DNA of 52,412 nt from a virus, in the IMG/VR virus record IMGVR_UViG_3300027743_000033, positions 1-52,412 of that record. One strand, written 5' to 3'. The number at the start of each line of letters is the position of its first letter. Position 1 is the first letter of the stretch. Shown here one piece after another: positions 6,739 to 23,005 of this stretch. The notes beneath the pieces were generated by a model. That model was given only the letters and a program-made list of their open reading frames with translations. It searched no databases and was not told where the DNA came from. A program made the position numbers and the translations under genes.

Positions 6739-6758
6739 CTCACGCTGCGCGATTGGAT
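6739..6758. repeat. 20-bp direct repeat, copy 2 (end of gcrA)
   Basis: Second copy of the repeat at 6135-6154. It covers the gcrA stop codon and the leader of the gene at 6168-6731. Confidence 0.85.
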
Positions 6759-7243
6759 CTGGCGGCGATGCCTGGGCAGCACAGGGCAAAATGTTCACTG
6801 CAGTAAGAGCGGTTGGGCAGCGTCTCGGCGGCGCAAAAGAAGAAGCTCCCCGAACCAGGCTCGCCAAACGGGAACCGGCAATCGCTCTCTTTGAGCTCGA
6901 AGAACTGCTTGCGCCGTCGTCGGGGCCTGCGCGGGACCGCCTCGGCCGGAAGTGCTGGCGCCGGCGGCCTCATCGGCTCTTGCTTCAGTTTCCTGTTGAT
7001 GCGGCCAGCGATGGTGTAATCGCCGCCGGCCTGGCGGGGCTGCGGCCGCAGCTTCGGCGGTTTCGGCGGTTTCGGCCGCGACAGACCAAGACGGTGTATT
7101 CGCCCGATCACGGCGTTGCGGGTCAGCCCGCAGTCGAGCTCGATGGCGATCCGGCCCGCAGACAAGCCCTCGGCGTGCAGACGCCTCAGGGCCTCGTCCC
7201 GCTCCGCGTGCCAAACAGTGACCTGTGCCATGCCGTCCCCCAT
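6740..7243 (-). CDS. gcrA: GcrA-like transcription regulator
   Basis: GcrA is the alphaproteobacterial cell-cycle activator that works with sigma70 at promoters methylated by CcrM (established). This 167-residue protein has the diagnostic N-terminus: 'VTVWHAERDEALRRLHAEGLSAGRIAIEL...TRNAVIGRIHRLGL', a basic proline-rich linker, then a C-terminal block 'CRFPFGEPGS..FFFCA...PNRSYCSEHFALCC' typical of the family end. A phage copy may redirect host cell-cycle transcription or act on phage promoters (inference). ATG 7243 has GAGAGG seven bases upstream; ATG 7231 is possible. Confidence 0.85.
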   Translation of the reverse strand: MGDGMAQVTVWHAERDEALRRLHAEGLSAGRIAIELDCGLTRNAVIGRIHRLGLSRPKPPKPPKLRPQPRQAGGDYTIAGRINRKLKQEPMRPPAPALPAEAVPRRPRRRRKQFFELKESDCRFPFGEPGSGSFFFCAAETLPNRSYCSEHFALCCPGIAARSNRAA

Positions 7244-7286: not shown

Positions 7287-7955
7287 TCATTCTGCCGCCT
7301 CGGCCTTGGTTTGTAGACGACGCGCATCCTCTTCCCGTTTGAGCGTTTGCCATTCGATGTCGGACAGCTTTGCTGCTTGTTTGGCAGCTCGGTCGAAAGC
7401 AGACACCTTTTTGCGGACGGGTTTTTTGCGGAAACCAGCCTCGATCATGCCGGCGTGCGGCGACAGCTCGCCGGCCAGCACGCGGGCGTGGATCTCGGGA
7501 CGGTCCTTGCGGAGACGGCGGAGCGCAGCAGCGGCGGAGGTGCCGGTGGGCCTCTCCACTTCGTTGATAACGGCGATCTTGTTATCAACAAGGTCGGTGC
7601 GCTTCCCCTGTTGGCTCTCATTAGCCCGATCCTTTTCCTCGATCTCGTTTGCCACCTTGGCTCGAATAGCTTTCTGCCATAGCTTCAGGGCTTCGGTGTC
7701 TTCGGCTTTAAGCAACAGCGTGGTGACAATCTCCGGGTCCCAGCCACAGCCCGCCGGCTTTTTGCCGGTGACGAATTCGGTGAAATCATCGAAGCGGATG
7801 ATCTTGCCCAGCTCATAGCGCTCGCGCCATGCGCCAGTTTCCAAGATTTCCCTTATCATTTGCGGAACATGAGGCAGCGTGCAGTCCTCTACTGCGCGCT
7901 TGAATCTCTGCACCACAGTAGTGTTGTCGCTGAGAAGGACCTTTTTAGGCGACAT
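7287..7955 (-). CDS. conserved phage/plasmid protein with KDRPE..GELSPHAGM motif
   Basis: A 222-residue protein from ATG 7955, which has AGGAG five bases upstream. The C-terminal half 'RPTGTSAAAALRRLRKDRPEIHARVLAGELSPHAGMIEAGFRKK' matches a widespread uncharacterised family found on phages and plasmids, sometimes near ParB-like genes. The N-terminal half ('IIRFDDFTEFVTGKKPAGCGWD...') is typical of the same family. It overlaps the end of the HNH-helicase gene by 11 bases, so the two are co-translated. I infer a DNA-related role. Confidence 0.65.
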   Translation of the reverse strand: MSPKKVLLSDNTTVVQRFKRAVEDCTLPHVPQMIREILETGAWRERYELGKIIRFDDFTEFVTGKKPAGCGWDPEIVTTLLLKAEDTEALKLWQKAIRAKVANEIEEKDRANESQQGKRTDLVDNKIAVINEVERPTGTSAAAALRRLRKDRPEIHARVLAGELSPHAGMIEAGFRKKPVRKKVSAFDRAAKQAAKLSDIEWQTLKREEDARRLQTKAEAAE

Positions 7956-10473
7956 CGGACTCCTCCGAAAGATCGCCATAGAGGTGCTGCGCGGGCCCGA
8001 CCACGCCGCGCATGATGAGATCAGCAAGCGCCAGGGATTTGAGTTTGTTTTTAATGGATGGGATCGAGAACTGGTAATGGAACCAGGGCCGGTCCAGGGG
8101 TCCGTTGTTTTCGGTGGAATGCGAGCCAGTCAGTCCACACATCTTGGCGGCGGCGGTGTACACCGCTTTGCTGGTTGGTCCGATGATAACCCGATAGTCA
8201 AACCCCTGCTTTGTCAGCTCCGCAAGCAGCGCATTGCGGACATTGGTAAGGACTCCGGGTTTCCCGTCGGCCGCGATCAGTTGCCGTATCTTGGTCACCG
8301 CCCTGAAATGCTGCTGGTCGTATTTTCGTTTCTGTTGTGCAACGAGCTTGCGGATGTTCGGGTCGGTACCGATCAACTCAGCGAGAGCCGGATCATTGCT
8401 GCCGTCACGCAAGTACCAGTCGCATAATTCATCAGTCGTGTAATCGGCAATGTCTTTGGGAGCCTCGCTCGATATTGGCCTGAGAATATCGAAACGCGGC
8501 TGCAAGATTGTCTCTCTGTAATCGCGACTGGTAAGCACTTGTCGGATGTGCTCTTCAGCGGATTCAGTCCGGCTTTCCGATTGCGGATCCGGCAGTGAGC
8601 ACACAATCTTACCAACATCCTCCGGCGTTACTTGCTTTCCTTGCTTTATGAGCGAGCCCAACTCGTTGTCGATTTGCAATCGGTCCATGAGAGTGAACGG
8701 TGCGTTCGCGTCCACAGGCCCCTCGATCGGCTCGATCTCCAGGCCCTTCATCAGATCGCTCCACGACAGCAGCCCGGAAGTCTCCAGCCTGGCGTCCATT
8801 TGCAATATGAATTCCCAGGCGTCCGCCGCGGCGCTGGGGCATTTGTCTTCGTTGCCTGGGTGGGGAAAATACCAGCGAGGATGGCAAAACCAATCGAACA
8901 TCTCAGCCTCGCGCATTTCTTTCAAATGTGCGGGCAGGCGTGATGTGCGGCCAATCGTCTGTACTTGTTCGCTCCAAGAGGCGCTCCGCTTTACGTCAAC
9001 GACGTACTTGAGCCCCCAATGGTTGAGTCCACGCACCGCGATGTCGACCACAAATATGATACGCGACGATCCCGGCACGCAGCGCCCGTTGTTGTCGAGC
9101 GCGAGCATGAATGGATGTTTCATGTCGGGATTGTTGTAGAACAGACTCGATTCATTCTTCGGGCGGTTGTGTTCACTCGACTTCTTACCGCCAGTAATTG
9201 ATTTGCTGCTTACCATATAGGTCGGGTACCAACCATCGTTGGGAGATAGCCCCATAAGCGATAGGTCTAACGCCGTCTGCTGGCATAACTCGATTGCTTC
9301 ATCGATTCCGTTGCAGGCAACAAAGATATGCGGCGAGAACCAATGAGACGACCATTTTTGCCGTATCTCTCGCTCATGTTCGATGCAGTCATGGACTGCT
9401 TGACGTATCGCCGACATGGTCCCCGGCAATGAATACTTTTCCCCATGTGCTCCTTTCTCTAGGTGCTCGACGCCCGAAACGTCCCGGCTAAAGCCGTCAT
9501 GCTTCACAGCCTGCACATAGCCGCGATCCAATGCGGACTGCCATGGCAACATTGGTGCCAGACAGCTATCCTCGCGAAAGACCGTCGAATGACTTGCAGT
9601 CGCCGCCAGGACAAAGTTGTTGCGGATGAATTTGCCATCCGCGTCGATCGGCGCGGCGGTCAATCCGAACTTCAGCGCGTGCGGTGACAATCGCACAAGC
9701 CGGTCGATCTGATCGCGGGCAAAATCGCACTCGTCCCAGATGATGACGTCATATTGCGCAAGCAGCGACTCAATCTCAATGTCGGACCGGCGCTGGTTTT
9801 TGCCTCCCCATAAAGCGTGAGGGCAGGAAATCACTATATCGTGGTGACCTGGGCCACGATCCAAATCGCCAGTTTCATCGCAAATTGTTATGCTGGGCAA
9901 TGTGGCTACCAAACGATGGTTACCGATATCGGCTTTTAGGTCGGACATAAGCTGCCGGCCGATCTGAGATTGATGACAGAACCACAACACCTTTGAGGGT
10001 CGCGGCGAGACCTTCTGACGCCTATTCACTTCCTCGCAAATGGCGAATAGAAATGCCAACATCAGAACGGTTTTGCCGGCACCGCAAGTCAGCGCCAGCA
10101 ACGAGACATTGCCGAGTAGTTTGTTGCGCAAATCACCGATAAACAGCTCGCCATTCTCAAACACATTGTCGACATTGAATTGTTGCGTCTGCCGCAGACC
10201 AGCGTACCTGAAAGCGCCATCAAACCAGCTCTGTTTACTCCATTTTGGATCGTAAGTCATTCCTCTCTCCTGGTTTGCTTTTCTACAGATTAATCGGCAG
10301 TTTGCTAAACTGGTTTCTCCTCCCAACCCGCGTGAATTGACGTGGTCAACTTCAAGGCGGCTGTCGCACTGAGTTGCGCAGCAAATCTCACACTGCCCTT
10401 TGGACCGCGCCAATAATGCGGCCCAGGTCGTGAGGTTCATGTCATTTGGTTTGTGGGGTAGTATCCATTTCAT
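7945..10473 (-). CDS. HNH nuclease-SF2 helicase fusion
   Basis: An 842-residue protein. Residues 25-72 form an HNH nuclease (C28, C31, 'LEVDHVNSRGLGG', then 'NCRLICRKANQERG'). A complete SF2 helicase/translocase follows: Walker A CGAGKT (130-135), DECD box (247-250), motif III 'LTAAP' (271-275), motif V 'VVDIAVRGLNH' (about 475-485) and motif VI 'QTIGRTSR' (505-512). About 330 further C-terminal residues match no domain I know. It heads the leftward early operon after the HTH genes. The domain order resembles restriction or exclusion enzymes more than replicative helicases. Start 10473 has AAGG upstream; ATG 10440 is possible. Confidence 0.82.
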   Translation of the reverse strand: MKWILPHKPNDMNLTTWAALLARSKGQCEICCATQCDSRLEVDHVNSRGLGGETSLANCRLICRKANQERGMTYDPKWSKQSWFDGAFRYAGLRQTQQFNVDNVFENGELFIGDLRNKLLGNVSLLALTCGAGKTVLMLAFLFAICEEVNRRQKVSPRPSKVLWFCHQSQIGRQLMSDLKADIGNHRLVATLPSITICDETGDLDRGPGHHDIVISCPHALWGGKNQRRSDIEIESLLAQYDVIIWDECDFARDQIDRLVRLSPHALKFGLTAAPIDADGKFIRNNFVLAATASHSTVFREDSCLAPMLPWQSALDRGYVQAVKHDGFSRDVSGVEHLEKGAHGEKYSLPGTMSAIRQAVHDCIEHEREIRQKWSSHWFSPHIFVACNGIDEAIELCQQTALDLSLMGLSPNDGWYPTYMVSSKSITGGKKSSEHNRPKNESSLFYNNPDMKHPFMLALDNNGRCVPGSSRIIFVVDIAVRGLNHWGLKYVVDVKRSASWSEQVQTIGRTSRLPAHLKEMREAEMFDWFCHPRWYFPHPGNEDKCPSAAADAWEFILQMDARLETSGLLSWSDLMKGLEIEPIEGPVDANAPFTLMDRLQIDNELGSLIKQGKQVTPEDVGKIVCSLPDPQSESRTESAEEHIRQVLTSRDYRETILQPRFDILRPISSEAPKDIADYTTDELCDWYLRDGSNDPALAELIGTDPNIRKLVAQQKRKYDQQHFRAVTKIRQLIAADGKPGVLTNVRNALLAELTKQGFDYRVIIGPTSKAVYTAAAKMCGLTGSHSTENNGPLDRPWFHYQFSIPSIKNKLKSLALADLIMRGVVGPAQHLYGDLSEESDVA

Positions 10474-10487
10474 TGAGCACCTTCGCC

Positions 10488-11009
10488 CTATCGTTTGCGA
10501 GCCAAGGTGCGATGAGGACCGCGAGCCACCGCGCGAAGCGCATCACCTTGCTCGCGATAAAATTCCTCGTCCTGAACAAGAAGGGCATCCGCACGGCCGA
10601 TGGCGGCGGAGAGCGCGGTGTCAGCATCGATCGCCTCCCTGAGCCTGCGGCGCGCCGCGCGTTGCAGCCGCTGCGCATCGATCGCGGCGAAATAAGCCTT
10701 GACCCGCCGCCACCAGACAGGCTCGGCGTCAGCCATCAGTGCGACCAGGAAATCGAGCCCGCGTTCGGAGCGGATCAGTGCCGCCAGCGCGTCCGTCGAT
10801 AGCGTGCGCTCGCCTGCAAGCCATCGTTCGGCGGTGCGGAGCGAAGCACCTGTAAGCTCTGCTAATTCGGCCGCCGTCTTGCGCGGCCACAAGCTGCGCG
10901 CTGCGAGCATGACGGGCGAAATCGACCGGCGCTTTGGTCGGTCATTACCGACCAGTTGGCCGGTGACGGAATTTGCGTTCCGGCGCCCGCCGATGCTGAT
11001 GGCGCTCAT
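10488..11009 (-). CDS. HTH regulator with C-terminal basic region
   Basis: A 173-residue protein with a central helix-turn-helix: 'LWPRKTAAELAELTGASLRTAERWLAGERTLSTDALAALIRSERG'. It continues with 'FLVALMADAEPVWWRRVKAYFAAIDAQRLQRAARRRLREAI'. The same arrangement is common in rhizobial phages and plasmids next to immunity genes. Its start overlaps the Cro-like gene's end by four bases, so the two are made together. Likely an early regulator. Confidence 0.7.
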   Translation of the reverse strand: MSAISIGGRRNANSVTGQLVGNDRPKRRSISPVMLAARSLWPRKTAAELAELTGASLRTAERWLAGERTLSTDALAALIRSERGLDFLVALMADAEPVWWRRVKAYFAAIDAQRLQRAARRRLREAIDADTALSAAIGRADALLVQDEEFYREQGDALRAVARGPHRTLARKR

Positions 11010-11227
11010 GATGTCGCCTCAGCGCCTACGTGCAACTTCATCAGTGTGTCCGCAGTTATGCCGCTTAATTTGCGGGCCTTTGCTGCCGCAAGGATATTTG
11101 GCCAATATTCGACTGGAATGCTGCCGCGCACCCGCATCGTCTGGGCGTGCGTGGGTTTGATCCCGATGTCCCGAGCAAATTCCGCGACCGTGGGCCAAAG
11201 ATTCATAAGGTCGTCGATCGTGTGCAT
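11006..11227 (-). CDS. Cro-like HTH regulator, first gene of the leftward operon
   Basis: A 73-residue protein 'MHTIDDLMNLWPTVAEFARDIGIKPTHAQTMRVRGSIPVEYWPNILAAAKARKL...', a compact Cro/CI-type HTH. It is the first gene after the left operator pair. With ATG 11227 the start lies about where transcription should begin from the promoter at 11236-11264 and has no Shine-Dalgarno, which suggests a leaderless message. The frame also allows GTG 11254, but that would lie upstream of the predicted transcript start. Confidence 0.7.
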   Translation of the reverse strand: MHTIDDLMNLWPTVAEFARDIGIKPTHAQTMRVRGSIPVEYWPNILAAAKARKLSGITADTLMKLHVGAEATS

Positions 11228-11235
11228 GGCGGCTA

Positions 11236-11264
11236 TTGCTACAATGTGTAGCACACGGGGTCAA
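11236..11264 (-). promoter_or_regulatory. leftward early promoter
   Basis: On the minus strand TTGACC (11264-11259) is followed by a 17-bp spacer and TAGCAA (11241-11236). The rightward promoter at 14796-14824 has the same -35, spacer length and -10 (TTGACG, 17, TAGCAC). One operator covers the -10 and a second touches the -35, in the same positions as at the right-hand promoter, so both should be repressed by one protein. Confidence 0.65.
11237..11253. promoter_or_regulatory. operator OL1 (perfect 17-bp palindrome)
   Basis: TGCTACAATGTGTAGCA: two perfect inverted 7-bp arms around ATG. It overlaps the -10 of the leftward promoter, so binding would block transcription of the Cro-like gene. 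Related sites at 11263, 14781 and 14807 support a real operator. Confidence 0.75.
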
Positions 11265-11279
11265 CTACCAACTGTAGCA
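11263..11279. promoter_or_regulatory. operator OL2 (imperfect)
   Basis: AACTACCAACTGTAGCA: a perfect right arm TGTAGCA and a degenerate left arm keeping CTAC, with the same 3-bp spacer. Its centre is 26 bp from OL1, and it overlaps the -35 hexamer by two bases. Confidence 0.6.
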
Positions 11280-11302: not shown

Positions 11303-11488
11303 ATGTCCACACGAGGGGAACGACTGCGAGAAGCGCGGATTGCGGCCGGCTATGGATCGGCTAGCGCAGCCGCGACCGCACTGGGCATCTCTCGTTCGAC
11401 TTACAATGCACATGAGCGCGCCGAGGAGCCCGGTGGAAGAGATTATGGCCCAGAGGATGCGGATCGTTATGGACGGAAGTTCAATGTC
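11303..11488 (+). pseudogene. 5' half of the HTH-HicB repressor, cut by IS21 element
   Basis: Sixty-two codons from ATG 11303 give a CI/XRE-type HTH domain ('TRGERLREARIAAGYGSASAAATALGISRSTYNAHERA...EDADRYGRKFNV'). The reading is broken exactly at the left 8-bp target duplication of the insertion element. After removal of the element and one duplication, the frame continues without a stop into 14285-14587 as '...KFNV-SDAYLLTG...', a normal continuation for this repressor type. It was divergently arranged from the Cro-like gene and presumably bound the flanking operators. In the present DNA it reads a few more codons into the element and stops at 11545. ATG 11282 is a possible upstream start. 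Confidence 0.8.
11481..11488. repeat. IS target site duplication, left copy
   Basis: TCAATGTC, repeated at 14277-14284 immediately outside the element's TG...CA ends. The 8-bp length is within the range known for IS21-family insertions. Confidence 0.9.
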
Positions 11489-11495
11489 TGTTGCG

Positions 11496-11549
11496 CGGCG
11501 TGGAAAATTGCCCCCCGTCTGGGGGTGATCGGCGTCGAAAACTGACCCC
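11496..11549. repeat. IS21 left-end repeated sites L1 and L2
   Basis: Two related sites, CGGCGTGGAAAATTGCCCC (from 11496) and CGGCGTCGAAAACTGACCCC (11530-11549). They are inverted relative to two sites at the right end (14226-14269). Such multiple repeats are the transposase binding sites of IS21 elements. Confidence 0.8.
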
Positions 11550-11590
11550 TTACCCCTTGGTCTGAAGATGACCTCTGGTGCGTTCATCGC

Positions 11591-13171
11591 ATGAGAGGCG
11601 AGACGAGGATGGTGACGGTGGAGACGATTGGCAAAGTTCGGCGGGCCTACTGGGTTCAGAAGAAGAAGATCAAGGCGATTGCGCGTGAGCTGAAGCTGGC
11701 GCGGAACACCGTGCGGTCGATCGTGCGGAGCGGAGAGACGGCGCCGGTCTACCTACGCAAGGCGCAGCCGCTGCCGAAGCTTGGGCTTTTTGTCGAGCCG
11801 CTCGATAAGTTGCTTGAAGAGAATGCAGGCAAGTCCAAGCGCGAGCGGCTGACGACGAAGAGGGTGTTCGAGAAGCTGCAGCAGGAAGCAGGCTATGCGG
11901 GCGGCTACGACGCAGTTCGCCGGTACGCACAGCGCTGGCGCCAACAGCATGCGGCAGCAACTGCGGCGGCGTTTGTGCCGCTCTCGTTTGCGCCAGGGGA
12001 GGCCTATCAATTCGACTGGAGCCACGAGATCGTGATCCTCGACGGCGTGACGGTCGAGGTGAAGGTGGCGCACATGCGGCTCTGCCACAGCCGGATGCCG
12101 TTCGTGCGGGCCTACCTGCGCGAGGCCCAGGAGATGGTATTCGACGCCCACGACACGGCGTTTGCCTTCTTCAAGGGAGCCTGCCAGCGGGGCATCTACG
12201 ACAACATGAAAACGGCTGTTGACGCGATCTATGTGGGCAAGGATCGAGCGTTCAACAGGCGCTTCCTACAGATGTGCAGCCACTACTTGGTCGAGCCCAC
12301 GGCGTGCACGCCTGGTGCCGCGTGGGAAAAGGGCCAGGTCGAGAAGCAGGTGGATAATCTTCGCACGGCCGTGTTCATGCCCAGGCCGCGGTTCAAGAGC
12401 TTGGAAGACCTCAACGCCTGGCTGCTCGCGGAGTGTATTGCCTGGGCCAGAAAGCAGGCTCACCCGGAGTTCCAAGACCAGACGATCTTCGAGGTGTTCG
12501 AGGCTGAGCGCAAGAATCTGGTCGGCTATCGAGGTCCTTTTGATGCCTACCGCTCGATCTCGGCGTCGGTGTCAAAGACGTGTCTGGTCCGCTTCGACAA
12601 CAACAAATACTCGGTAATGGCCAAGGCCGTCGGCCGTCCGGTCGATATCTACGCCTATGCGGACAGCGTCGTACTCAAGCAGGACGGCGAGGTCGTCGGC
12701 GAGCATCCGCGCTCATTCGCCCGCAACAAGACCCAATACGATCCGTGGCACTACGTGCCGGTGCTGGCGAGGAAGCCCGGGGCCATGAGGAACGGGGCGC
12801 CGTTCAAGGACTGGGAACTGCCCGGCGCGCTCGGCCGGGTGAGAGCCAAGCTCAAGGGCGTAACGGATGGCGATCGCCAGATGGTCGATATCCTCACCAC
12901 GGTGCTCACCGACGGGCTTGCTGCGGTGGAGGCGGCGTGTGCGGAGGCTTTTGCCGGTGGGACGCATAGCGCGGACGTCATCTTGAACATCCTGGCGCGA
13001 CGCAGCGAGCCGACACCATCCCCAGCCGTTGCTACACCGGCGCAACTGCATCTGGCGGTGCCGCCACGGGCTGATTGCGCTCGCTATGATGGCCTACGGC
13101 CGCTGCCGACCCACCCCACCGCTGCGCTTGTCGAAGCCGCCACCGTGGGAGGTACTCATGGAGCGGTCTGA
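11591..13171 (+). CDS. istA: IS21 transposase IstA
   Basis: DDE-type transposase of 526 residues. The N-terminal HTH '[34 protein letters not shown]' binds the ends. The rve-like core has the catalytic residues in 'YQFDWSHE' (D near 142), 'GIYDNMK' (D near 204) and '[11 protein letters not shown]' (E near 246). The C-terminus carries the usual 'NKYSV...VYADSVVL'-type Mu C-terminal barrel. Length is normal for IstA. It overlaps istB by 14 bases. Confidence 0.95.
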
Positions 13172-13886
13172 GATCCTGGAGATGATGGGCCAACTGCAGC
13201 TGTCTGGCATGCGGGGGGCTTACGACGAAATCGTCACAGCGGGCATCAAGCGCAGCCACGGGATCGAGCGCGTCATTGGTGCCTTGCTCAAGGCCGAGAT
13301 CGCGGAGAAGGAGGCGCGCTCGATTCGCTACCAGATGGGGATCGCCAAGCTGCCGCTCGCCAAGGAGCTTGCCGAGTTCACCTTTGCCGGCACGCCGATC
13401 AACGAGCAACTGGTGCGCGACCTGGCGGGCGGCGGCTTCCTTGCTCAGCAGCGCAACGTCGTGGCGATCGGTGGAACTGGCACCGGCAAGACGCATCTTT
13501 CTATCGCCATCGCGAGAAGCTGCATTCGTGCGGGCAAGAAGACGCGCTTCTTCAACGTCATCGATCTCGTCAACAAGCTCGAGGCCGAGGTCAAGCTCGG
13601 TCGGGCCGGCCGCATCGCCGACGGGTTGACACGCGTCGACCTGGTGATCCTCGACGAACTGGGCTATCTGCCATTTGCCCAGAGTGGCGGCCAACTGCTG
13701 TTCCACCTGATCAGCCGCCTCTACGAGCGCACCTCTATCATTGTCACCACAAACCTTGCTTTCGCCGAGTGGCCGACCGTATTCGGCGACGCCAAGATGA
13801 CGACCGCACTGCTCGACCGGCTCACGCACCACTGCGACATCATCGAGACCGGCAACGACAGCTGGCGCTTCAAGAACCGCAATTGA
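13158..13886 (+). CDS. istB: IS21 helper ATPase IstB
   Basis: AAA+ ATPase of 242 residues that assists IstA in target choice. It starts at ATG 13158 with GGAGG five bases upstream, inside the istA end. It shows '[12 protein letters not shown]' at the N-terminus, Walker [10 protein letters not shown], Walker B '[12 protein letters not shown]' and sensor '[18 protein letters not shown]'. It appears full length and intact. Confidence 0.95.
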
Positions 13887-14276
13887 CGCGCTTGCCCGCT
13901 CCGGCCAAGCGCCCACATGATCGCTGCCCGACTTGCACTTAGCCTGCCAGCGTGCTCGCCACCGGCAAGGTGCGGCCTGGCGACGGCGGAGTGTGCCGCA
14001 CGGTTGGAGCGACGGCCGACCTTGACGGCGTCTGCGCGCGCTGGCCGCGCGCGATCGCAAGGTCGGGGCGAAGGAACGCGCCAGATCGAACAAAGGAACT
14101 GCACTGTAGAACGGCGCCAAGTTCTGACCCCTCATCAGCATCAATCCTGACCCAAAAAAACGACCGACACTTGAGGCTGAAGCTGCGCAGCTTCGGGCTC
14201 AAATGGCCGAAAACTCATGCGCAGGAGGGTCAAATTTGCACGCCGATCGGGGGTCAACTTCGGACGCCGATTGACA
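13887..14276. other. non-coding right arm of the IS element
   Basis: About 390 bp after istB without a convincing gene. It is part of the element and includes repeated sites R2 (14226-14245, GGGTCAAATTTGCACGCCG) and R1 (14249-14269, GGGGTCAACTTCGGACGCCG), inverted copies of L2/L1. The open frame through here simply joins the downstream HicB fragment. Confidence 0.7.
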
Positions 14277-14284
14277 TCAATGTC
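14277..14284. repeat. IS target site duplication, right copy
   Basis: TCAATGTC, matching 11481-11488. It directly precedes the resumed repressor reading frame. Confidence 0.9.
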
Positions 14285-14587
14285 TCGGATGCCTATTTGT
14301 TGACCGGAAAAAACTTGGTGCCACCCGATGCCTTCAAGAGATCAAAGCCTGTGCCAATGCTGATCGTCATTAAGGCTGAATTTGATCCCGACTCCGAATC
14401 CTGGTGGGCCACCGCGGATATTGACGATCGCCACGCGTTAGCAACTGGTGCTCCTACATTGAACGAATTGCTGGAACGAATCCCAATTGTGCTGCGAAGT
14501 CTTTTGGCAGAAGCGTACCCGGACACGGAAATTCCGTTCAGCATCGTGGCCCACAAATTCAGCGTCGTGAACACGCGCGTGGCATGA
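14285..14587 (+). pseudogene. 3' half of the HTH-HicB repressor (DUF1902 antitoxin domain)
   Basis: One hundred codons that continue the frame broken at 11488. 'SDAYLLTGKN' completes the HTH repressor. It is followed by a DUF1902/HicB-like antitoxin domain 'MLIVIKAEFDPDSESWWATADIDDRHALATGAPTLNELLERIPIVL...IPFSIVAHK'. The stop overlaps the hicA start (ATGA). Uninterrupted, the protein would be 162 residues: repressor head and HicA-neutralising tail in one chain. An internal ATG at 14357 could still give a lone antitoxin domain, although no ribosome site is visible before it. Confidence 0.8.
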
Positions 14588-14778
14588 ATAATTTTACCCC
14601 GGCGTTAAAAAAACTTCTGCGTGAAGCCGGTTGTTTTGTCGTCAGATCGGGGAAGGGCGACCATGAAATCTGGGAAAGCCCGGTTTCCAACAAGCGCTTC
14701 CCGGTCGACAGCAAGATTGCATCCCGCCACTTGGCGAACGCAGTGCTGAAACAAGCCGGATTAGCCAAACAATTTTGA
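14584..14778 (+). CDS. hicA: HicA-family mRNA-interferase toxin
   Basis: A 64-residue HicA toxin with the double-stranded-RNA-binding-like fold. 'FTPALKKLLREAGCFVVRSGKGDHEIWESP' carries the catalytic histidine (H27), and 'KRFPVDSKIASRHLANAVLKQAGL' is the standard second half. HicA cleaves mRNA and is neutralised by the HicB protein encoded next to it. Here the partner is the C-terminal part of the split HTH-HicB gene, overlapping by four bases. The toxin itself looks intact. Confidence 0.92.
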   Translation: MNNFTPALKKLLREAGCFVVRSGKGDHEIWESPVSNKRFPVDSKIASRHLANAVLKQAGLAKQF

Positions 14779-14780
14779 AT

Positions 14781-14797
14781 TGCTACAAAACGTAGTT
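14781..14797. promoter_or_regulatory. operator OR2 (imperfect)
   Basis: TGCTACAAAACGTAGTT: a perfect left arm, a degenerate right arm keeping GTAG, and a 3-bp spacer. It overlaps the -35 of the rightward promoter by two bases, as OL2 does on the left. Confidence 0.62.
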
Positions 14798-14824
14798 GAC
14801 GGCCTCTGCTACGTAGTGTAGCAC
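14796..14824 (+). promoter_or_regulatory. rightward early promoter
   Basis: TTGACG (14796-14801), 17 bp, TAGCAC (14819-14824). It mirrors the leftward promoter, with one operator over the -10 and another touching the -35. It should drive the recombination/integration operon starting at 14853. Confidence 0.65.
14807..14823. promoter_or_regulatory. operator OR1
   Basis: TGCTACGTAGTGTAGCA: one mismatch from a perfect 7-3-7 palindrome. It covers the spacer end and -10 of the rightward promoter. Its centre is 26 bp from OR2, the same spacing as OL1 to OL2. Confidence 0.72.
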
Positions 14825-14852: not shown

Positions 14853-15077
14853 ATGCCGAAACTCCACGACCTCGAAGTCTTCGTCTGCCTCAACGAGGAC
14901 GGCGATTACGTCGCCGATATCGACGCCGATATCGCGCTGTCCCAGTGCCAAGAAAGCATGGGCGGCCAAGCATTCAGGACCGTCAAATTGATGGTGACCA
15001 TGGCGGCGCCCGAAATCGCCGCCGTCGCGGTCCGCGTGCCGGACGAGGCGGGCGAGACCGTCGCGGTGGGGGCGTAG
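14853..15077 (+). CDS. small early protein, unknown
   Basis: Seventy-four residues, 'MPKLHDLEVFVCLNEDGDYVADIDADIALSQCQESMGGQAFRTVKL...'. It is the first gene after the rightward promoter, with GGGAG six bases before the ATG. The acidic beta-rich N-terminus is followed by a 'VTMAAPEIAAVAVRVPDEAGE' tail. I recognise it only as a small-protein type from rhizobial phages. No function can be assigned. Confidence 0.65.
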   Translation: MPKLHDLEVFVCLNEDGDYVADIDADIALSQCQESMGGQAFRTVKLMVTMAAPEIAAVAVRVPDEAGETVAVGA

Positions 15078-15797: not shown

Positions 15798-15973
15798 TGA
15801 CGCCCGGATACGCAGTCGATCCGATCATTGGAGCGCTCATTGCCCGTCTACCGGAAGTGGGCAGCGTCTGGCCGGAGACCGAGCGGAACCTATGGCTCGA
15901 TCTCATGCGTCAATGTTTCAAACTGATTTACAAAGATCCGGAGGTGGTTGGACAGGAAGGGCACCCGTCATGA
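15794..15973 (+). CDS. 59-residue early protein, unknown
   Basis: A short gene linked by ATGA overlaps on both sides, which is strong support that it is translated. It reads 'MMTPGYAVDPIIGALIARLPEVG...' and then a tryptophan-rich block with WPETERNLWLDL and FKLIYKD. Similar mini-proteins accompany YqaJ/RecT genes in rhizobial phages as I recall them. Function unknown. Confidence 0.6.
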   Translation: MMTPGYAVDPIIGALIARLPEVGSVWPETERNLWLDLMRQCFKLIYKDPEVVGQEGHPS

Positions 15974-16890
15974 TCGAACGTCACCCCATGACGGACGGAC
16001 GGGTTCACCCGCTCCGGGCGTTCGCCATCACCGGGTCCGTTGGTGGCGGCCTGCTCGGCGTCCATCCCCACTGGACCCCCTATAGCTTGCACATGGTCAA
16101 GGCCGGATTGGTCGCCGACGACGTCGAAGAGACGGCGCCGATGAAGCGCGGAAGGCTTTTGGAGCCTGTCGCGGTTCAGTTGATCCGAGAAGATTACCCC
16201 GCCATTACGCTAGAAGAATACCCGGTAGGGACGTATTATCTCGATCCTGAGGCGCGCATTGGCGCTACGCCAGACGTGCTGGCGAGGGACGCCAAAGGAC
16301 GGCTCGGCGTAATCCAAATAAAAAATGTCGAGCCCTCAATCTTCCGCCGCGACTGGCGCGGAGAGAACGGCGTCGTCGATCCGCCACTGTGGATCGTGGT
16401 GCAAGCCCTCATCGAGGCGTACCTGACCGGCGCCGAATGGGCGGCCGTCGCGCCGATGCGCGTCAGCTTCGGTGTTGAGATCGAACTCATCCCCATCCCG
16501 CTGCACGAAGGCATCATCGATCGGCTGAAATACGAGGTCGCCGAGTTTTGGCGCCGCATCGAGGCGGGAACGCCGCCCGACCCCGACTATGGGAAGGATG
16601 GCGCGCTGATCGCCAAGCTTTTCCCGAAAGACGACGGCAGCGAAATCGATTTGAGCGCGGACAACATGGCGCCGCAGCTCGTGGCCGACCTCGAGCGCGC
16701 GCGCGCCGACAAGAAGGATGCCGAGACGCGCGAGAAGGTCGCCAAAACCGGCATCAACGAGAAGATGGGCCCTGCCCGCTTCGCGCGCCTCGCCGATGGT
16801 CGGCGCATCTCGAACATCACCGTTAATCGCGCAGAATTTTATGTCAAAGCCACCACTTACCGCGCAATCAAAATTTTGGCAGCAAACTGA
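15970..16890 (+). CDS. YqaJ-family phage exonuclease
   Basis: A 306-residue lambda-exonuclease-like (PD-(D/E)xK) alkaline nuclease that resects double-strand ends for the annealing protein. It shows 'MKRGRLLEPVAVQLIRED' (the GxxLEP-type glutamate), 'IGATPDVLA' (catalytic D), 'LGVIQIKNV' (QIK, standing in for ExK) and 'PPLWIVVQALIEAYLTGAEWAAV' (the YqaJ signature). The start at 15970 is set by an ATGA overlap. RecT lies two genes downstream, giving the expected exonuclease-annealase pair. Confidence 0.85.
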   Translation: MIERHPMTDGRVHPLRAFAITGSVGGGLLGVHPHWTPYSLHMVKAGLVADDVEETAPMKRGRLLEPVAVQLIREDYPAITLEEYPVGTYYLDPEARIGATPDVLARDAKGRLGVIQIKNVEPSIFRRDWRGENGVVDPPLWIVVQALIEAYLTGAEWAAVAPMRVSFGVEIELIPIPLHEGIIDRLKYEVAEFWRRIEAGTPPDPDYGKDGALIAKLFPKDDGSEIDLSADNMAPQLVADLERARADKKDAETREKVAKTGINEKMGPARFARLADGRRISNITVNRAEFYVKATTYRAIKILAAN

Positions 16891-17738
16891 TGACCTTCTA
16901 CACCTACGTGATGCGCGACCCGCGCCCGGGTAAAAACTTGCAGCCGATCTACGTCGGCAAAGGCAAAGGTAGACGAGTACACGTGCATTGGCGCAAAGCC
17001 CTCGACCATAGGAATCCATTGCTCCGTCGCGTCTTTGGCAAACTTCACAAATCTGGCTTGGAACCGCAGATTGAGATCGTCGGCCATTTCGATGTCGAGA
17101 CCGAAGCCTTTCAGCGCGAAATCGAATTGATCGCCCAATATGGACGACGCGATCTTGGCTTGGGCACTCTTTGCAATCTTACTGACGGTGGCGATGGCGC
17201 GTCTGGATGTTTGATTACTGCGACGCGCGTCGAACGCTTTCGAAAACAACTCACCGATCCTGAGTCTGAGTTTTCCAAAGCAAGAGTTGAAGGTTTGCGA
17301 AAGCCGGAGGTTAGGAAGGCCAATTCCGAACGCATGCGAAAGCGCTCTGCCGACCCGGAATTTAGGAAGGCTAATTCCGACCGTACGCGGAAGCAAAATG
17401 CCGATCCGGAATTCATCAAGGCGCGTGCTGAAGCTTTAGTTAAGCTTCACGCTGACCCGGAATTCACCAAAGCGAATACCGAACGCATGCGCAAGCGCAG
17501 CGCCGACCCAGAATTTAAAACTCGCGCGGCCGCTGGTCGTGCGGCTTATCAGGCCAAAGGGCTCTCGTGTGGTGAGGGTAACAGCATGGCAAAATTGAAT
17601 GAAGAAGCGGTTTGCGAAATCAAGAAACGCATTGCAAGCGGAGAAAGGAGTACGCCGATTGGCTGTGACTTTGGTGTTTCCAGGCGAACAATCTCACACA
17701 TCAAGAATGGGACAACCTGGGGGCACGTTAATGTCTGA
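16890..17738 (+). CDS. GIY-YIG homing endonuclease
   Basis: A 282-residue protein. The N-terminal GIY-YIG nuclease domain starts 'FYTYVMRDPRPGKNLQPIYVGKGKGRR' and includes 'FQREIELIAQYGRRDLGLGTLCNLTDGGDG' (catalytic E). Four short NUMOD-like repeats follow, each near 'ADPEF.KANSERMRKR'. A C-terminal HTH 'AKLNEEAVCEIKKRIASGERSTPIGCDFGVSRRTISHIKNGTTW' completes it. This is a classic mobile homing endonuclease. It is wedged between the exonuclease and the coiled-coil gene with one-base and eight-base overlaps. Confidence 0.9.
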   Translation: MTFYTYVMRDPRPGKNLQPIYVGKGKGRRVHVHWRKALDHRNPLLRRVFGKLHKSGLEPQIEIVGHFDVETEAFQREIELIAQYGRRDLGLGTLCNLTDGGDGASGCLITATRVERFRKQLTDPESEFSKARVEGLRKPEVRKANSERMRKRSADPEFRKANSDRTRKQNADPEFIKARAEALVKLHADPEFTKANTERMRKRSADPEFKTRAAAGRAAYQAKGLSCGEGNSMAKLNEEAVCEIKKRIASGERSTPIGCDFGVSRRTISHIKNGTTWGHVNV

Positions 17739-18630
17739 CCGACTTGCCATTGGTGACAACCGGCCCGCGCTCATCACCGCCGACCAGCTCGCGAAGGACT
17801 TCGCGCATATCGAGAAGTTCGTGGCTGAACTTGAGGCTACAGCGAAGGACGTCGCCCCCGTCGTTGAAGACGATGAGGACCTCGCCATCGTCAATGCGCT
17901 GGTGCCCAATCTGCGCGCCGGCGCCAAGCATTGCGACGAGGTCCGCGACCAAGAGAAGCGGCCCTACCTCGACGCCGGCACCACGGTGCAAACCTTCTTC
18001 AAGGCGTTTGAAAACCGCCTGCTCACGCTCAAGACGGATCTCGAGAGCCGCGGCGGCCGATACCTCAAGAAGAAGGCCGACGCCGAGCGCATCGCGCGCG
18101 AGGAAGAAGCCCGCAAAGCCCGCGAGGAAGAAGCTCGCCAGCGCGCTGCAGCCGAAGCCGCGGAGGCCGCAGCACGGCGCGCGCGCGAAGCCGCTGAGAA
18201 GGCGGAGGCGGACCGCGCCAAGGCCGCAGCAATGGCCGATGCGGGGGCGTTGGAGAAAGCGGCACAGGCGAAGGCCGCAGCTGATGCTGAGGTCGCCGCA
18301 GCGACGGCGCGCGCGCAGGCCGAGCAGAAAGCCGCCAGCGAAGCGACGGCCCAGACCGCGGCGACAGAAAAGGCGGCAACGGCAAAGACGGCCGACCTTG
18401 CACGTACGCACACCGCCGGCGGAACGAGCAGTTTGCTGGAAACTTACGAGCCGAAAGTCGGCGACTTCGCGAAGGTCGATTTGCTCGCGATCCGGGCCTT
18501 CATTCGAGAAGACGAGATCATGTTGGCGCTACGCGCCTACGCGCGCGCGAACAAGGACGAGCTCAAAGCCGGCGGCGCCAAGATCGACGGCGTGACGTTC
18601 GTGCTCACCACGAAAGGAAGTTTTCGATGA
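17731..18630 (+). CDS. alanine-rich coiled-coil protein of the RecT operon
   Basis: A 299-residue protein from ATG 17731 (GGGGG seven bases upstream). The middle (about residues 105-215) is an uninterrupted Ala/Glu/Arg coiled coil ('REEEARKAREEEARQRAAAEAAEAA'). Ordered ends flank it; the C-terminal 'LETYEPKVGDFAKVDLLAIRAFIREDEIMLALRAYARAN' resembles proteins encoded between phage exonuclease and RecT genes. It probably helps recombination or host-nuclease control, but that is inference. Confidence 0.65.
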   Translation: MSDRLAIGDNRPALITADQLAKDFAHIEKFVAELEATAKDVAPVVEDDEDLAIVNALVPNLRAGAKHCDEVRDQEKRPYLDAGTTVQTFFKAFENRLLTLKTDLESRGGRYLKKKADAERIAREEEARKAREEEARQRAAAEAAEAAARRAREAAEKAEADRAKAAAMADAGALEKAAQAKAAADAEVAAATARAQAEQKAASEATAQTAATEKAATAKTADLARTHTAGGTSSLLETYEPKVGDFAKVDLLAIRAFIREDEIMLALRAYARANKDELKAGGAKIDGVTFVLTTKGSFR

Positions 18631-19643
18631 CCACCACCGAAGTCGCAGTCCAGCAGGCTAGCAACGTCGCAGCGTTGCCGACGCGCCATCTCGTGCCATC
18701 AACCGATCTGTTCTCCGACCCAGCGGCCTTCGAACACGCGCAGCGAGTTGCCAAGGTCTTTGCCTCGTCAAAGCTCGTCCCGCAACACATGCAGGGCAAC
18801 ACGGCCGACTGTCTTATTGCGCTCCAGATCGCACGCAGGCTCAACGAAGAGCCTCTGACGGTCATGCAGCAAATCTACATCGTGAATGGCCGCCCCGGTT
18901 GGTACACGAGCTACATGATCTCGCGCGTCAACCGCGCTGGGATATTAAAAGGCCCAATCACATGGGAAGAGGCGGGTGAGGGCGACGCGCTCACTGTGAC
19001 TGCAAAGGCAGTGCTCGCAGCCACTGGAGAAGAAATCCGCGCGTCTGCGGACATGCGTATGGCGGCCGCCGAGGGATGGACCAAAAACGCCAAATACAAA
19101 AGCATGCCGGCCCATATGCTGCGCTGGCGCTCGGCCGCGATGCTGATCCGCCTTTACGCCCCCGAGGTCATGCTCGGCATGCCGGCCGTCGAAGAACTTG
19201 AGACGATGCCGAAGATGCGGGACGTGACGCCGGCGAAAAACCTGGCCGACAAGCTCGACGCTCTCGCCCAAATCCCCGCCAAGGCCGAGACGCACGACCC
19301 CGAGACCGGCGAAATCACCGACGAAGCTCCGCGTGCGGGCACAGCTTCGACGCAGGCGCCTTCAGCAATGGATGCCCCACCTGCGACGGGCCAGCCGGCT
19401 TCCGATCCTGATCCCTCCCAAAGGAAATCAGAACAACCGGGAGCCGGCGCGGCCTCTGCTGCTGCCTATCTGCAAGACACCCACGCATGGATCGAAAACC
19501 TGCTCGACGCCGACGCTGGGGAGAAAAGATGGAAAGCCGAGAAAGTCTTGCGCAATCGCTTGAACGTCGATCCAGACGATCGTGACAGGCTTGATGCCGC
19601 ATTGAAGGCGAAGATCGCGGCGCTGCGCGGGCTGATGACGTGA
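18627..19643 (+). CDS. recT: RecT-family single-strand annealing protein
   Basis: A 338-residue annealase. The RecT core lies in the first 190 residues: 'PQHMQGNTADCLIALQIARRLNEEPLTVMQQIYIVNGRPGWYTSYMISRVNRAG', then 'ITWEEAG', 'EGWTKNAKYKSMPAHMLRWRSAAMLIRLYAPEVMLGM'. The rest is a disordered proline/alanine linker and a C-terminal helical domain. It works with the YqaJ nuclease upstream and overlaps the coiled-coil gene by an ATGA. Confidence 0.9.
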   Translation: MTTTEVAVQQASNVAALPTRHLVPSTDLFSDPAAFEHAQRVAKVFASSKLVPQHMQGNTADCLIALQIARRLNEEPLTVMQQIYIVNGRPGWYTSYMISRVNRAGILKGPITWEEAGEGDALTVTAKAVLAATGEEIRASADMRMAAAEGWTKNAKYKSMPAHMLRWRSAAMLIRLYAPEVMLGMPAVEELETMPKMRDVTPAKNLADKLDALAQIPAKAETHDPETGEITDEAPRAGTASTQAPSAMDAPPATGQPASDPDPSQRKSEQPGAGAASAAAYLQDTHAWIENLLDADAGEKRWKAEKVLRNRLNVDPDDRDRLDAALKAKIAALRGLMT

Positions 19644-20018: not shown

Positions 20019-20378
20019 ATGCGGCTTCACGCGACAGTCATTGTGCTCGCCATGGTCCCGCTCGTGGTGTTCGCGATCGGGAGCTACGGCAAGCCGCAGA
20101 AGCCGCCGGCGCCGATCGAGCAGGCGACCGTACTGCGCGCGGTCAAGACCGACAGCTTCCGCGCGCCGGCGCTGGTCGTCACCGCCACACCATTCACGCC
20201 GGTCCTGGTCGAGCGTCCGGTCGTGACGGAGGAGGCCCGGTCCATCCCCGCCTTCGGGCCTCCTCCACCTCAGTCAGTCAAGAAGAAGACCAGGCTGGCT
20301 TACCGGCCGGACGACATCTGTACGCGACACGGCCTCCGTCGCGTGGACTACGGCCGGCGATGGAGATGCCGGAAATGA
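20019..20378 (+). CDS. membrane-anchored proline-rich protein
   Basis: A 119-residue protein with an N-terminal hydrophobic helix 'ATVIVLAMVPLVVFAIGSY', a proline-rich stalk and a basic C-terminal motif 'DDICTRHGLRRVDYGRRWRCRK' with two cysteines, a tail seen in other small Bradyrhizobium envelope proteins. Probably anchored in the inner membrane with a periplasmic domain. It belongs to the exported-protein cluster. Confidence 0.62.
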   Translation: MRLHATVIVLAMVPLVVFAIGSYGKPQKPPAPIEQATVLRAVKTDSFRAPALVVTATPFTPVLVERPVVTEEARSIPAFGPPPPQSVKKKTRLAYRPDDICTRHGLRRVDYGRRWRCRK

Positions 20379-20404
20379 TCTCAACCCAGAAGGACTATCA
20401 CCCC

Positions 20405-21064
20405 ATGAGGAAACTACTCGCGCTCGCGACCACAGCCGTCTTACTCGCTATGGCGGCACCTGCGAAAGCCGACATCATCATCGACACGACCGGCCAAGGT
20501 GGCACCGGCAACAACGTCATCTTCAGCAGCATTGCCAACTCTAGCCTGATCCTTGGCCGCCTCAACGGCCAGAACAACGAGTTTGTCCGCTTCCGGGACT
20601 TGTCCGGCAACGGCGCTTTTTCCGGCGCCGCCAACGGCAACGACATCAAGATCGTGAACACATCGGACTTGGACATCACGGTCTTCGACAGCAACAACCT
20701 GATCCAACTTGGTGTCACAAGAGATATCTTCAGCATCAAAGGCACCGGGACCATGTTCTTCCATGTGACGGCCTTGGAAGCGGACGGCACCTTCCAGACC
20801 TTCAACTTTGGCGGCTACACGCTCGGGAGCGGGCAGAACGGGTTTGATTTCCAGGCCATCAACGGCGAGCGTATCTGGGACATGGACTTGGTGAACATCG
20901 GCGGCACCATCTCTGACTTCGAACACTTCCGCATCGATGTCGCGCCGTTCGCGGCAGTGCCGGGCCCCATAGCTGGCGCTGGCCTGCCTGGGCTGATCGC
21001 AGCTTGCTTCATGCTGTTCGGGCTCAACAAGCGGCGGCGGCAGCGGCAGATCGGGCTCGCCTGA
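20405..21064 (+). CDS. secreted protein with PEP-CTERM-like C-terminus (1)
   Basis: A 219-residue exported protein. The signal peptide is 'MRKLLALATTAVLLAMAAPAKA', the mature domain is beta-rich and Asn/Gly/Asp-rich, and the C-terminus is tripartite: 'VPGPIAGAGLPGL', a hydrophobic helix, then 'NKRRRQRQ'. This motif-helix-basic-cluster layout is that of PEP-CTERM proteins, which host exosortase/archaeosortase-like enzymes process at the cell surface. It shares the motif with the next gene. Start 20405 has AAGGA ten bases upstream; ATG 20375 is also possible. Confidence 0.78.
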   Translation: MRKLLALATTAVLLAMAAPAKADIIIDTTGQGGTGNNVIFSSIANSSLILGRLNGQNNEFVRFRDLSGNGAFSGAANGNDIKIVNTSDLDITVFDSNNLIQLGVTRDIFSIKGTGTMFFHVTALEADGTFQTFNFGGYTLGSGQNGFDFQAINGERIWDMDLVNIGGTISDFEHFRIDVAPFAAVPGPIAGAGLPGLIAACFMLFGLNKRRRQRQIGLA

Positions 21065-21096
21065 ATTCTTCCAACCAACCCTCATGAGGTAACCAC

Positions 21097-21684
21097 ATGA
21101 AGAAGCTACTTCTCGCGACCGCCGCGCTGCTCGCCACGACGGTGGTGGGCAACGCAGCAATCATCGATAATTTGGGCTCCAACCCTACAAGTGCCCAGGG
21201 CGATTTCACCAGCGTCCTCGGCGGCGTCAACGCCACCGGAAATGGTCTCTTCTCCGACCAAATACTGTTCCAGTTGACCAACGCACAAACTATCACCGTC
21301 GCCTCGGCCACCAACAGCTTCCCCGGCGGCAACACGACGACTGACTTTATCACTAACTTCGCGGCGTCGATCTACAGCTACGGTCTCGACAACCTCTTCG
21401 ACGGCCCAGGGATCGGTGACGACTCGCTGTTGTTTGGCCCGCAATTCGCGACACTAGGCTGCTCCAATCTCTGCCAGAACTTGTTTGGTATCGCCACGCT
21501 TGATGCCGGGTCCTACTACGTCAGCCTGACCGGCACCGGCGGCGGGACTTCTGGTTATGGTGGCAACATATCAACGCTTGCCGTGCCCGGCCCCATCGCA
21601 GGTGCAGGCATTCCTGGATTGCTAACCGCGTTCGGCGCGGTCGGCGTCTGGTGGAAACGCCGTCGTCAACAAGCTCACGCCTGA
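21097..21684 (+). CDS. secreted protein with PEP-CTERM-like C-terminus (2)
   Basis: A 195-residue exported protein starting behind GAGG. It has the signal peptide 'MKKLLLATAALLATTVVGNAA' and a beta-rich mature domain 'FSDQILFQLTNAQTITVASATNS...SYYVSLTGTGGG', similar in style to PEP-CTERM surface proteins. The end is 'AVPGPIAGAGIPGLLTAFGAVGVWWKRRRQQ', nearly identical in its motif to the previous gene. The two bodies differ in sequence, so the tail is the shared functional element. Likely a lysogeny-expressed cell-surface protein. Confidence 0.78.
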   Translation: MKKLLLATAALLATTVVGNAAIIDNLGSNPTSAQGDFTSVLGGVNATGNGLFSDQILFQLTNAQTITVASATNSFPGGNTTTDFITNFAASIYSYGLDNLFDGPGIGDDSLLFGPQFATLGCSNLCQNLFGIATLDAGSYYVSLTGTGGGTSGYGGNISTLAVPGPIAGAGIPGLLTAFGAVGVWWKRRRQQAHA

Positions 21685-22324: not shown

Positions 22325-23005
22325 ATGAGCGGACATAGGCACCAAACGAAACGCTGCGATACCTGCGAGTTTTGGGCACGGGGAGACCAGGGCAAGGGCC
22401 GCGTCTACACCAACCAACGGCCGCTCGTGGCGCTGCAATCGCTAATGGAGAAACCCCATGCATACTGTCCGCTTCGAGCCGGTCAATCCGACAGAAGTCG
22501 AACTCGAACTTCGGCTGCACATGACAAACCTCTGCCTCGCTGTCGTCAGCAAGGAGCCGGGCAGAGTACGCGAGTGCAAAGATCTTCTCGTTCAAAAGGT
22601 TTGCGAATTGATAGACGCGGCAGTGGAATCGAAAACATGACCGCACCGCTGTATACCGTGGACGATGTGGCCGGGCGCCTTCACAAGAGCCGGCGCTGGT
22701 TGCAGGATTTCCTGCGCGGTCGGGACATCGGACGGCTGGCCGGGCGCACTCGGCTATTCACCGAGATCGACGTCGGCCGACTGATCGAGGCTCTGCCATG
22801 CTCAAGCTCAAAGACCCCCGCAAAGGCAAAAGCCCGAACTACTCGATCCGGGGGACGTACCGCGGTATCCGCGTGGACAAGAGCTGCGGAACTCACAAAC
22901 GATCAGTCGCTGTTGCCGAACTCAAGCGACTTGAAGAGGCCATCGAGCGCGGCGAGTACCCGCCCAAAGAAGCCCCAACTGATCGTGGACAACCAACGTT
23001 CCTGA
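22325..23005 (+). CDS. CxxC mini-protein in a run-on frame reaching through xis
   Basis: From ATG 22325 the first 50 codons look real ('MSGHRHQTKRCDTCEFWARG...', 'QRPLVALQSLMEKPHAYCPL': a CxxC...C zinc-type motif). The frame then continues with Ser/Arg-rich noise across the gene at 22458 and joins in frame with the excisionase-like HTH protein. Probably a small zinc protein has lost its own stop codon. The long fusion is unlikely to be the main product, because 22458-22640 is better coding in another frame. Confidence 0.4.
   Translation: MSGHRHQTKRCDTCEFWARGDQGKGRVYTNQRPLVALQSLMEKPHAYCPLRAGQSDRSRTRTSAAHDKPLPRCRQQGAGQSTRVQRSSRSKGLRIDRRGSGIENMTAPLYTVDDVAGRLHKSRRWLQDFLRGRDIGRLAGRTRLFTEIDVGRLIEALPCSSSKTPAKAKARTTRSGGRTAVSAWTRAAELTNDQSLLPNSSDLKRPSSAASTRPKKPQLIVDNQRS
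22458..22640 (+). CDS. 60-residue early protein, unknown
   Basis: ATG 22458 has GGAG seven bases upstream: 'MHTVRFEPVNPTEVELELRLHMTNLCLAVVSKEPGRVRECKDLLVQKVCELIDAAVESKT'-type sequence, alternating strands and helices. It ends in an ATGA overlap with the excisionase-like gene. It is clearly the coding frame in this stretch. Function unknown. Confidence 0.6.
   Translation: MHTVRFEPVNPTEVELELRLHMTNLCLAVVSKEPGRVRECKDLLVQKVCELIDAAVESKT
22637..23005 (+). CDS. excisionase-like HTH protein (AlpA/MerR type)
   Basis: From ATG 22637 the first 55 residues are a winged-helix excisionase type: 'PLYTVDDVAGRLHKSRRWLQDFLRGRDIGRLAGRTRLFTEIDVGRLIEALPC'. The rest is a basic tail encoded on top of the integrase 5' end (a 208-base overlap). 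It sits immediately before int, the usual place for the directionality factor, so it probably bends attP and promotes excision (inference from family and position). Confidence 0.72.
   Translation: MTAPLYTVDDVAGRLHKSRRWLQDFLRGRDIGRLAGRTRLFTEIDVGRLIEALPCSSSKTPAKAKARTTRSGGRTAVSAWTRAAELTNDQSLLPNSSDLKRPSSAASTRPKKPQLIVDNQRS

Follow-up and report, generated by a model that had tools for sequence, protein, structure and literature searches.

In phage lambda, the cI-rexA-rexB genes are bracketed by the OR and OL operator sets; the CI repressor ends in a self-cleavage and oligomerisation domain, and the RexAB proteins are different from HicA, and CI does not neutralise them. The paaR2-paaA2-parE2 operon of the cryptic lambdoid prophage CP-933P in E. 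coli O157:H7 carries an addictive toxin-antitoxin (TA) pair, and its repressor also controls a further prophage promoter (PMC8630535). For HicA toxins, a survey of genetic contexts distinguished 14 classes (Gerdes 2024, PMC10865869). Here we analysed the immunity region of the virus record IMGVR_UViG_3300027743_000033 (52,412 nt, the whole of which is called the window), which has the gene content of a temperate phage. The region holds hicA directly behind a gene that joins an N-terminal helix-turn-helix (HTH) domain of the XRE type to a HicB antitoxin domain (DUF1902) and that is now cut by an insertion sequence (IS). With a probability of about 0.68, the gene before the insertion encoded an immunity repressor that carried, as its C-terminal domain, the antitoxin of the downstream HicA.

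The fused gene is interrupted after codon 62 by an IS21-type element, identified by its IstA (Mu-transpos_C_2, E 4e-20) and IstB (PF01695, E 4e-74) proteins and bordered by an 8-bp target duplication, TCAATGTC. Read across the element from the ATG at 11303, the frame is open for 162 codons to the TGA at 14585-14587. The joined protein starts with the XRE-type HTH, followed by DUF1902 at residues 89-153 (PF08972, 27 bits against a cut-off of 22 bits). The HTH, at about residues 5-72, has the weaker matches: HTH_31 at E 1.9e-4, which is below the Pfam cut-off, PHROG 4 'transcriptional repressor' at E 1.9e-5, and HTH_19. The DUF1902 part corresponds to TTHA1013 (1wv8; hmmsearch E 1.5e-22, Foldseek probability 1.0, TM 0.74 of target), which serves as the reference for HicB's partial RNase H fold (PMC10865869). 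The stop codon of the fused gene overlaps the start of hicA by ATGA, from which we infer that the two genes would be co-transcribed. Together with this overlapping HicA-family gene and the partial RNase H domain, a conserved HicA histidine (His27, invariant across 18 HicAs) gives the pair the sequence features of a type II HicBA system. A C-terminal S24 domain for self-cleavage and oligomerisation, as in lambda-type repressors, is absent; DUF1902 occupies its place. PADLOC matched neither the fusion nor HicA.

A search with the HicA sequence identified the viral contig L010 (IMGVR_UViG_3300046816_000387), in which a single uninterrupted gene of 176 codons encodes an HTH-like N-terminus and DUF1902, lies directly upstream of hicA and overlaps it by ATGA. 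The HicA proteins of the window and L010 are 91% identical and the DUF1902 domains 67%. Similarity at the DNA level starts at 14354 in the window and 4765 in L010, one codon ahead of the first methionine of the DUF1902 module, and ends with hicA. Because the copy in L010 is uninterrupted, the fusion is neither a chance product nor an artefact of reading across the IS. The N-terminal HTH-HicB fusion is real.

The surroundings of the gene pair indicate what the HTH might do. The candidate operator, TGCTACANNNTGTAGCA, is a 17-bp near-palindrome (TGCTACA-N3-TGTAGCA) with two copies on each side of the pair, and the start-to-start spacing is 26 in both the left and the right pair. Allowing up to 3 mismatches, the motif matches at 5 places in the window where 0.69 would be expected, and this number was reached in 0 of 100 shuffled sequences. 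The L010 fusion also faces a divergent Cro-like gene, and the palindrome CGTTAC-N5-GTAACG occurs there at 4390, 4434, 4449, 5212 and 5246, with all five copies in the two gaps flanking the pair. The count itself is not rare (five were reached in 25 of 200 shuffles); the placement is exclusive. The predicted operator sequence differs between the two phages, as does the HTH. Counterparts of the window's Cro-like gene in the viral contigs L002, L003 and L010 exceed the carph-isopro cut-off. In L002, L005 and L008, too, the repressor has operators on both sides in a similar layout, and we therefore regard the space between the operator sets as the repressor slot.

The window HTH is closest (44-49% identity) to the N-terminal parts of repressor-like phage proteins, and three of these (L004, L005 and L006) bear a long CI/LexA-like C-terminus. 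The S24 character of these C-termini was deduced from the sequences and weak model matches, without a Pfam hit. Because its closest relatives are repressor N-termini, the fusion appears to be a CI-type repressor with its C-terminal domain replaced by HicB. Both fused genes combine an N-terminal XRE-type HTH (weaker in L010), operators before a divergent Cro-like gene and another operator set at the early operon on the other side, as a lambda-type repressor does. This layout supports the view that the fused gene sits exactly where the immunity repressor belongs. The 162-codon frame obtained by removing the IS and one target copy, the domain order and overlap with hicA, and the repressor position facing a Cro-like gene across operators had been proposed in an earlier note on this DNA. 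All three proposals were borne out, the second by the domain matches and by L010, and the third with additional operators to the right of hicA. The note had also suggested looking for an uninterrupted HTH-DUF1902-HicA locus at an immunity position, which L010 provides.

Coordinates of the features discussed (window positions unless a contig is named).
Feature	Position	Strand	Evidence or remark
Cro-like (carph-isopro) gene, first gene of leftward early operon	11006..11224	-	NF046037 E 1e-6, below cut-off
Left operator 1 (predicted)	11237..11253	.	TGCTACAATGTGTAGCA, perfect palindrome
Left operator 2 (predicted)	11263..11279	.	3 mismatches
Fused gene, 5' fragment	11303..11488	+	codons 1-62, HTH; first target-duplication copy (11481-11488) at its end
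IS21-type insertion sequence	11489..14276, 2788 bp	+	istA 11591-13171; istB about 13159-13886
Fused gene, 3' fragment	14277..14587	+	second target-duplication copy (14277-14284), HTH end, linker, DUF1902/HicB from about 14357
hicA toxin gene	14584..14778	+	PF07927 E 8e-9; PHROG 353 toxin E 9e-13
Right operator 1 (predicted)	14781..14797	.	3 mismatches; downstream of hicA
Right operator 2 (predicted)	14807..14823	.	1 mismatch
Rightward early operon, first gene	14853..15077	+	ORF list; leads to YqaJ-type exonuclease, RecT, integrase
YqaJ-type exonuclease	15892-16890
RecT	18627-19643
Integrase	22798-23841		PF00589 E 2e-18
Primase/helicase	1090-2598
Free-standing DUF1902	L002 7944-8312; L003 8007-8165; L034 4004-4201		L002 and L003 copies in early operons by the repressor region

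A different view of the same region is that the pair is an ordinary hicBA system with an autoregulatory HTH, a passenger in the immunity region of a phage whose true repressor is encoded elsewhere. Antitoxins of TA pairs often have a DNA-binding domain and autoregulate (PMC10865869), and DUF1902 modules move between phages. Against this, both phages also have candidate operators at the early operon on the opposite side, related phages keep their repressor in the same slot, and no second CI-like gene was found among the scanned ORFs. We therefore consider a passenger role improbable.

The distribution of the module bears on what its DUF1902 part does. The fusion was found in 2 of about 37 distinct viral hicA loci, those of the window phage (also represented by the contig L001) and L010; the remaining viral loci have small free HicBs, or in a few cases an open upstream frame with unclear start. 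Scans of genome contigs, run with the joined protein as well as with an alignment, returned no relatives, and an exact search of viral contigs with the left half of the gene gave no match. No fused homologue was found in phage and plasmid collections, where a LexA-family regulator encoded by a Pseudochrobactrum plasmid was the sole match, through its HTH. Salmonella phage SEN22 and a Klebsiella phage have hicA near anti-repressor genes, but neither shows an HTH fusion and both were set aside; the protein upstream of hicA in SEN22 matches DUF1902 only. In L002, a separate HTH gene is followed by a second operator pair and then by DUF1902 as first gene, and in L003 and L034 the DUF1902 genes are free-standing, shortened and start at the equivalent methionine. 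Because these three relatives hold DUF1902 as a separate gene, the module is taken to be mobile between phages, with fused and unfused states, and the fusion is rare. The free-standing copies are possibly remnants or anti-HicA decoys. In L002, GC-rich repeats encoding ARPG-like runs (8200-8400 and 9060-9640) take the place of the end of DUF1902 and are found again further downstream.

Free-standing DUF1902 genes without a detectable hicA would also fit a repressor that uses DUF1902 only for dimerisation or oligomerisation, next to a HicA that is inactive, unexpressed or not its partner. This explanation is very unlikely in view of hicA itself, which is kept, overlaps translationally and has its histidine intact. 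Between the window and L010, dN/dS is about 0.08 for DUF1902 (with dS saturated) and 0.12 for hicA, and judged by these ratios strong purifying selection acts on the DUF1902-hicA module.

It is less credible still that the HTH and HicB are separate proteins, with HicB translated from an internal ATG (14357 in the window, 4768 in L010) and the fusion only formal. The equivalent methionine is the start of DUF1902 in L003 and L034, which would suit internal initiation. However, no stop codon separates the two parts in either phage, and neither internal ATG is preceded by a Shine-Dalgarno-like motif, whereas the free-standing DUF1902 of L003 has GGGGAGG ahead of its start. That the joined frame arose by chance or through misassembly can practically be dismissed given the L010 gene and the clean target duplication, even with the window copy interrupted and L001 starting at that duplication. 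L001 is the same phage as the window (100% identity over 8308 nt), and its contig begins at the first base of the duplication; this fits an IS-bearing or mixed population and therefore does not prove an empty site, and none was seen for the window phage.

Several observations weigh against a repressor that is also an antitoxin. The HTHs of the window and L010 are only 32% identical over 41 residues, and at E 0.05 Pfam matches nothing in the L010 HTH (its PHROG 4 match has E 4e-4). The structure model obtained with an alignment is confident for DUF1902 only (pLDDT 91-94, against 38-84 for the HTH blocks), so that the structure prediction suggested in the earlier note resolved the antitoxin domain and left the HTH without confidence. 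AlphaFold from the single sequence gave a pLDDT of 46. The top Foldseek matches of the model, coiled coils with a TM of about 0.13, were discarded as meaningless. Only two fused loci are known from our searches, one of them broken by the IS, and in L002, L003 and L034 DUF1902 is unfused and no hicA was detected by blastn comparison. The same note had named separate HTH and HicB genes in related phages as an argument against its proposal; they occur in these three contigs and not in L010. Its central claim, that the repressor is the antitoxin, is favoured by the fusion, its position and the two-sided operators, and is tempered by the broken state of the gene in the window genome, where the repressor is probably inactive and immunity lost. 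Finally, HicA freed on induction would be expected, by analogy with phage Adephagia, to damage the phage's own lytic cycle. Adephagia without its HicB is impaired in lytic growth (PMC11373665), and therefore induction must spare or bypass HicB function.

The broken gene may still serve hicA. The left fragment is predicted to give a product of 80 aa from which the last part of the HTH region and the entire C-terminus are missing. The right fragment belongs to an uninterrupted frame that runs from 13943, within the IS, to the end of the DUF1902 part; HicB may therefore still be made from it in the window phage and hicA be tolerated. The window genome may represent either a decaying prophage or a clear-plaque type mutant. 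The IS ends with TTGACA (14271-14276), a possible outward -35 box toward DUF1902-hicA. Consensus promoter scans gave no match, including no full promoter at this site.

For the uninterrupted gene, we infer from what is known of the protein families that the fusion would bind DNA, autoregulate and neutralise HicA. Its N-terminal HTH would, in a lysogen, occupy the left operators and so shut down cro together with the replication operon, besides regulating the promoter of the fused gene itself. By binding the operators to the right of hicA it would also shut down the exonuclease-RecT operon, and the HicB domain would meanwhile bind and silence HicA. The level of a single protein would thus set immunity and toxin control together, and HicA would be released when the fusion is lost by curing or depleted by proteolysis. 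Binding of HicA to the HicB domain could alter operator occupancy, as in autoregulated TA pairs. On induction, the fusion might drop operator binding without immediate HicA release, or lytic growth might need fresh antitoxin. More speculatively, the HicB domain could take over the role of the CI C-terminal domain with HicA as the switch signal. The HicA-to-HicB balance and HicB turnover would then set operator occupancy, the TA cycle rather than RecA-driven self-cleavage would end lysogeny, and the free DUF1902 proteins of L002 and L003 would be decoys disarming the HicA of a resident prophage. We give this extended scheme a small chance.

If the fusion indeed acts as both repressor and antitoxin, one protein would carry prophage immunity and toxin control, and curing or repressor loss would unmask the toxin automatically. 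The repressor could then sense stress via antitoxin turnover instead of the SOS response, and HicA would have an arrangement outside the 14 published classes. With two genes and their operators uninterrupted, L010 offers a small concrete system in which a possible TA role in the lysis-lysogeny decision can be examined directly.

The rest of the window fits a lambda-like gene order, with cro and replication genes leftward and exonuclease, RecT and integrase rightward; terminase, head and tape-measure genes are on the minus strand. The phage encodes a GcrA-family cell-cycle regulator (6740-7243, minus strand, PF07750, E 1e-30), which points to an alphaproteobacterial host. The Cro operon contains a gene (7945-10473, minus strand) for an 842-aa protein with an HNH motif and a ResIII-type helicase. 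The ORF at 16890-17738 has internal tandem repeats, ERMRKRSADPEFRKAN-like, and its N-terminus looks like a GIY-YIG-type endonuclease. Signal-peptide-like N-termini occur in proteins of the rightward region of both phages with a fused repressor (20360-21684 in the window, 6063-6755 in L010).

Among described systems, Adephagia gp90-gp91 is, like the present pair, a phage-encoded hicBA pair. The Adephagia pair falls in class 2, and its antitoxin is a free 65-aa protein distinct from the immunity repressor gp43 (PMC11373665). In P. putida, prophage P1 has RexAB-type genes after its repressor gene, a case of exclusion or toxin-like genes behind a repressor, and the prophage pair hicAB2 is functional but plays no part in prophage stability or in defence against phages (PMC12894663), which cautions against assuming a role for the hicA pair described here. 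In the Rac prophage (RacR with YdaS-YdaT), the host suffers toxicity when the prophage repressor is lost (PMC5700373). RacR acts by repressing ydaST transcription and not as a protein antitoxin, unlike the role proposed for the fusion, and the toxin status of YdaS/T is disputed (PMC5917428). CrlTA of Pseudomonas aeruginosa shows that a prophage Cro-like HTH protein can be an autoregulating type II antitoxin (PMC9127804). Unlike the fusion, it has a RelE-like toxin encoded upstream and a single-domain antitoxin, for which no role as an immunity repressor flanked by two sets of operators was demonstrated.

The pair resembles published HicA/HicB classes in having HicA beside a HicB/DUF1902 partial RNase H antitoxin, with the hicBA order of classes 2 and 5. 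It differs from class 2, where HicB has 63-103 codons and no DNA-binding domain, by fusions of 162 and 176 aa with an N-terminal HTH. It differs from class 3, where the HTH is C-terminal and the order hicAB, in both respects, and from class 5, which shares the order, in that the N-terminal Phd/YefM domain was not matched. A HicB that precedes hicA and carries an XRE HTH at its N-terminus is absent from all 14 classes (PMC10865869); this holds for the open-access literature searched, and other descriptions may exist. The earlier note had presented the arrangement as not previously known, which stands for the HicA classes and less so for the principle, a CI-like repressor with a TA pair having a precedent in paaR2-paaA2-parE2 (PMC8630535). 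With the lambda plan of OR-cI-rex-OL the locus shares its architecture, HicB standing in place of the CI C-terminal domain and hicA in the rex position. By function, paaR2-paaA2-parE2 would be the nearest analogue: there too, a CI-like repressor and a TA pair share an immunity-region operon that faces a Cro-like gene, YdaS. In that operon the repressor PaaR2 and the antitoxin PaaA2 are made as two proteins, with ParE2 as the toxin, whereas here repressor and antitoxin are one chain and the toxin is HicA.

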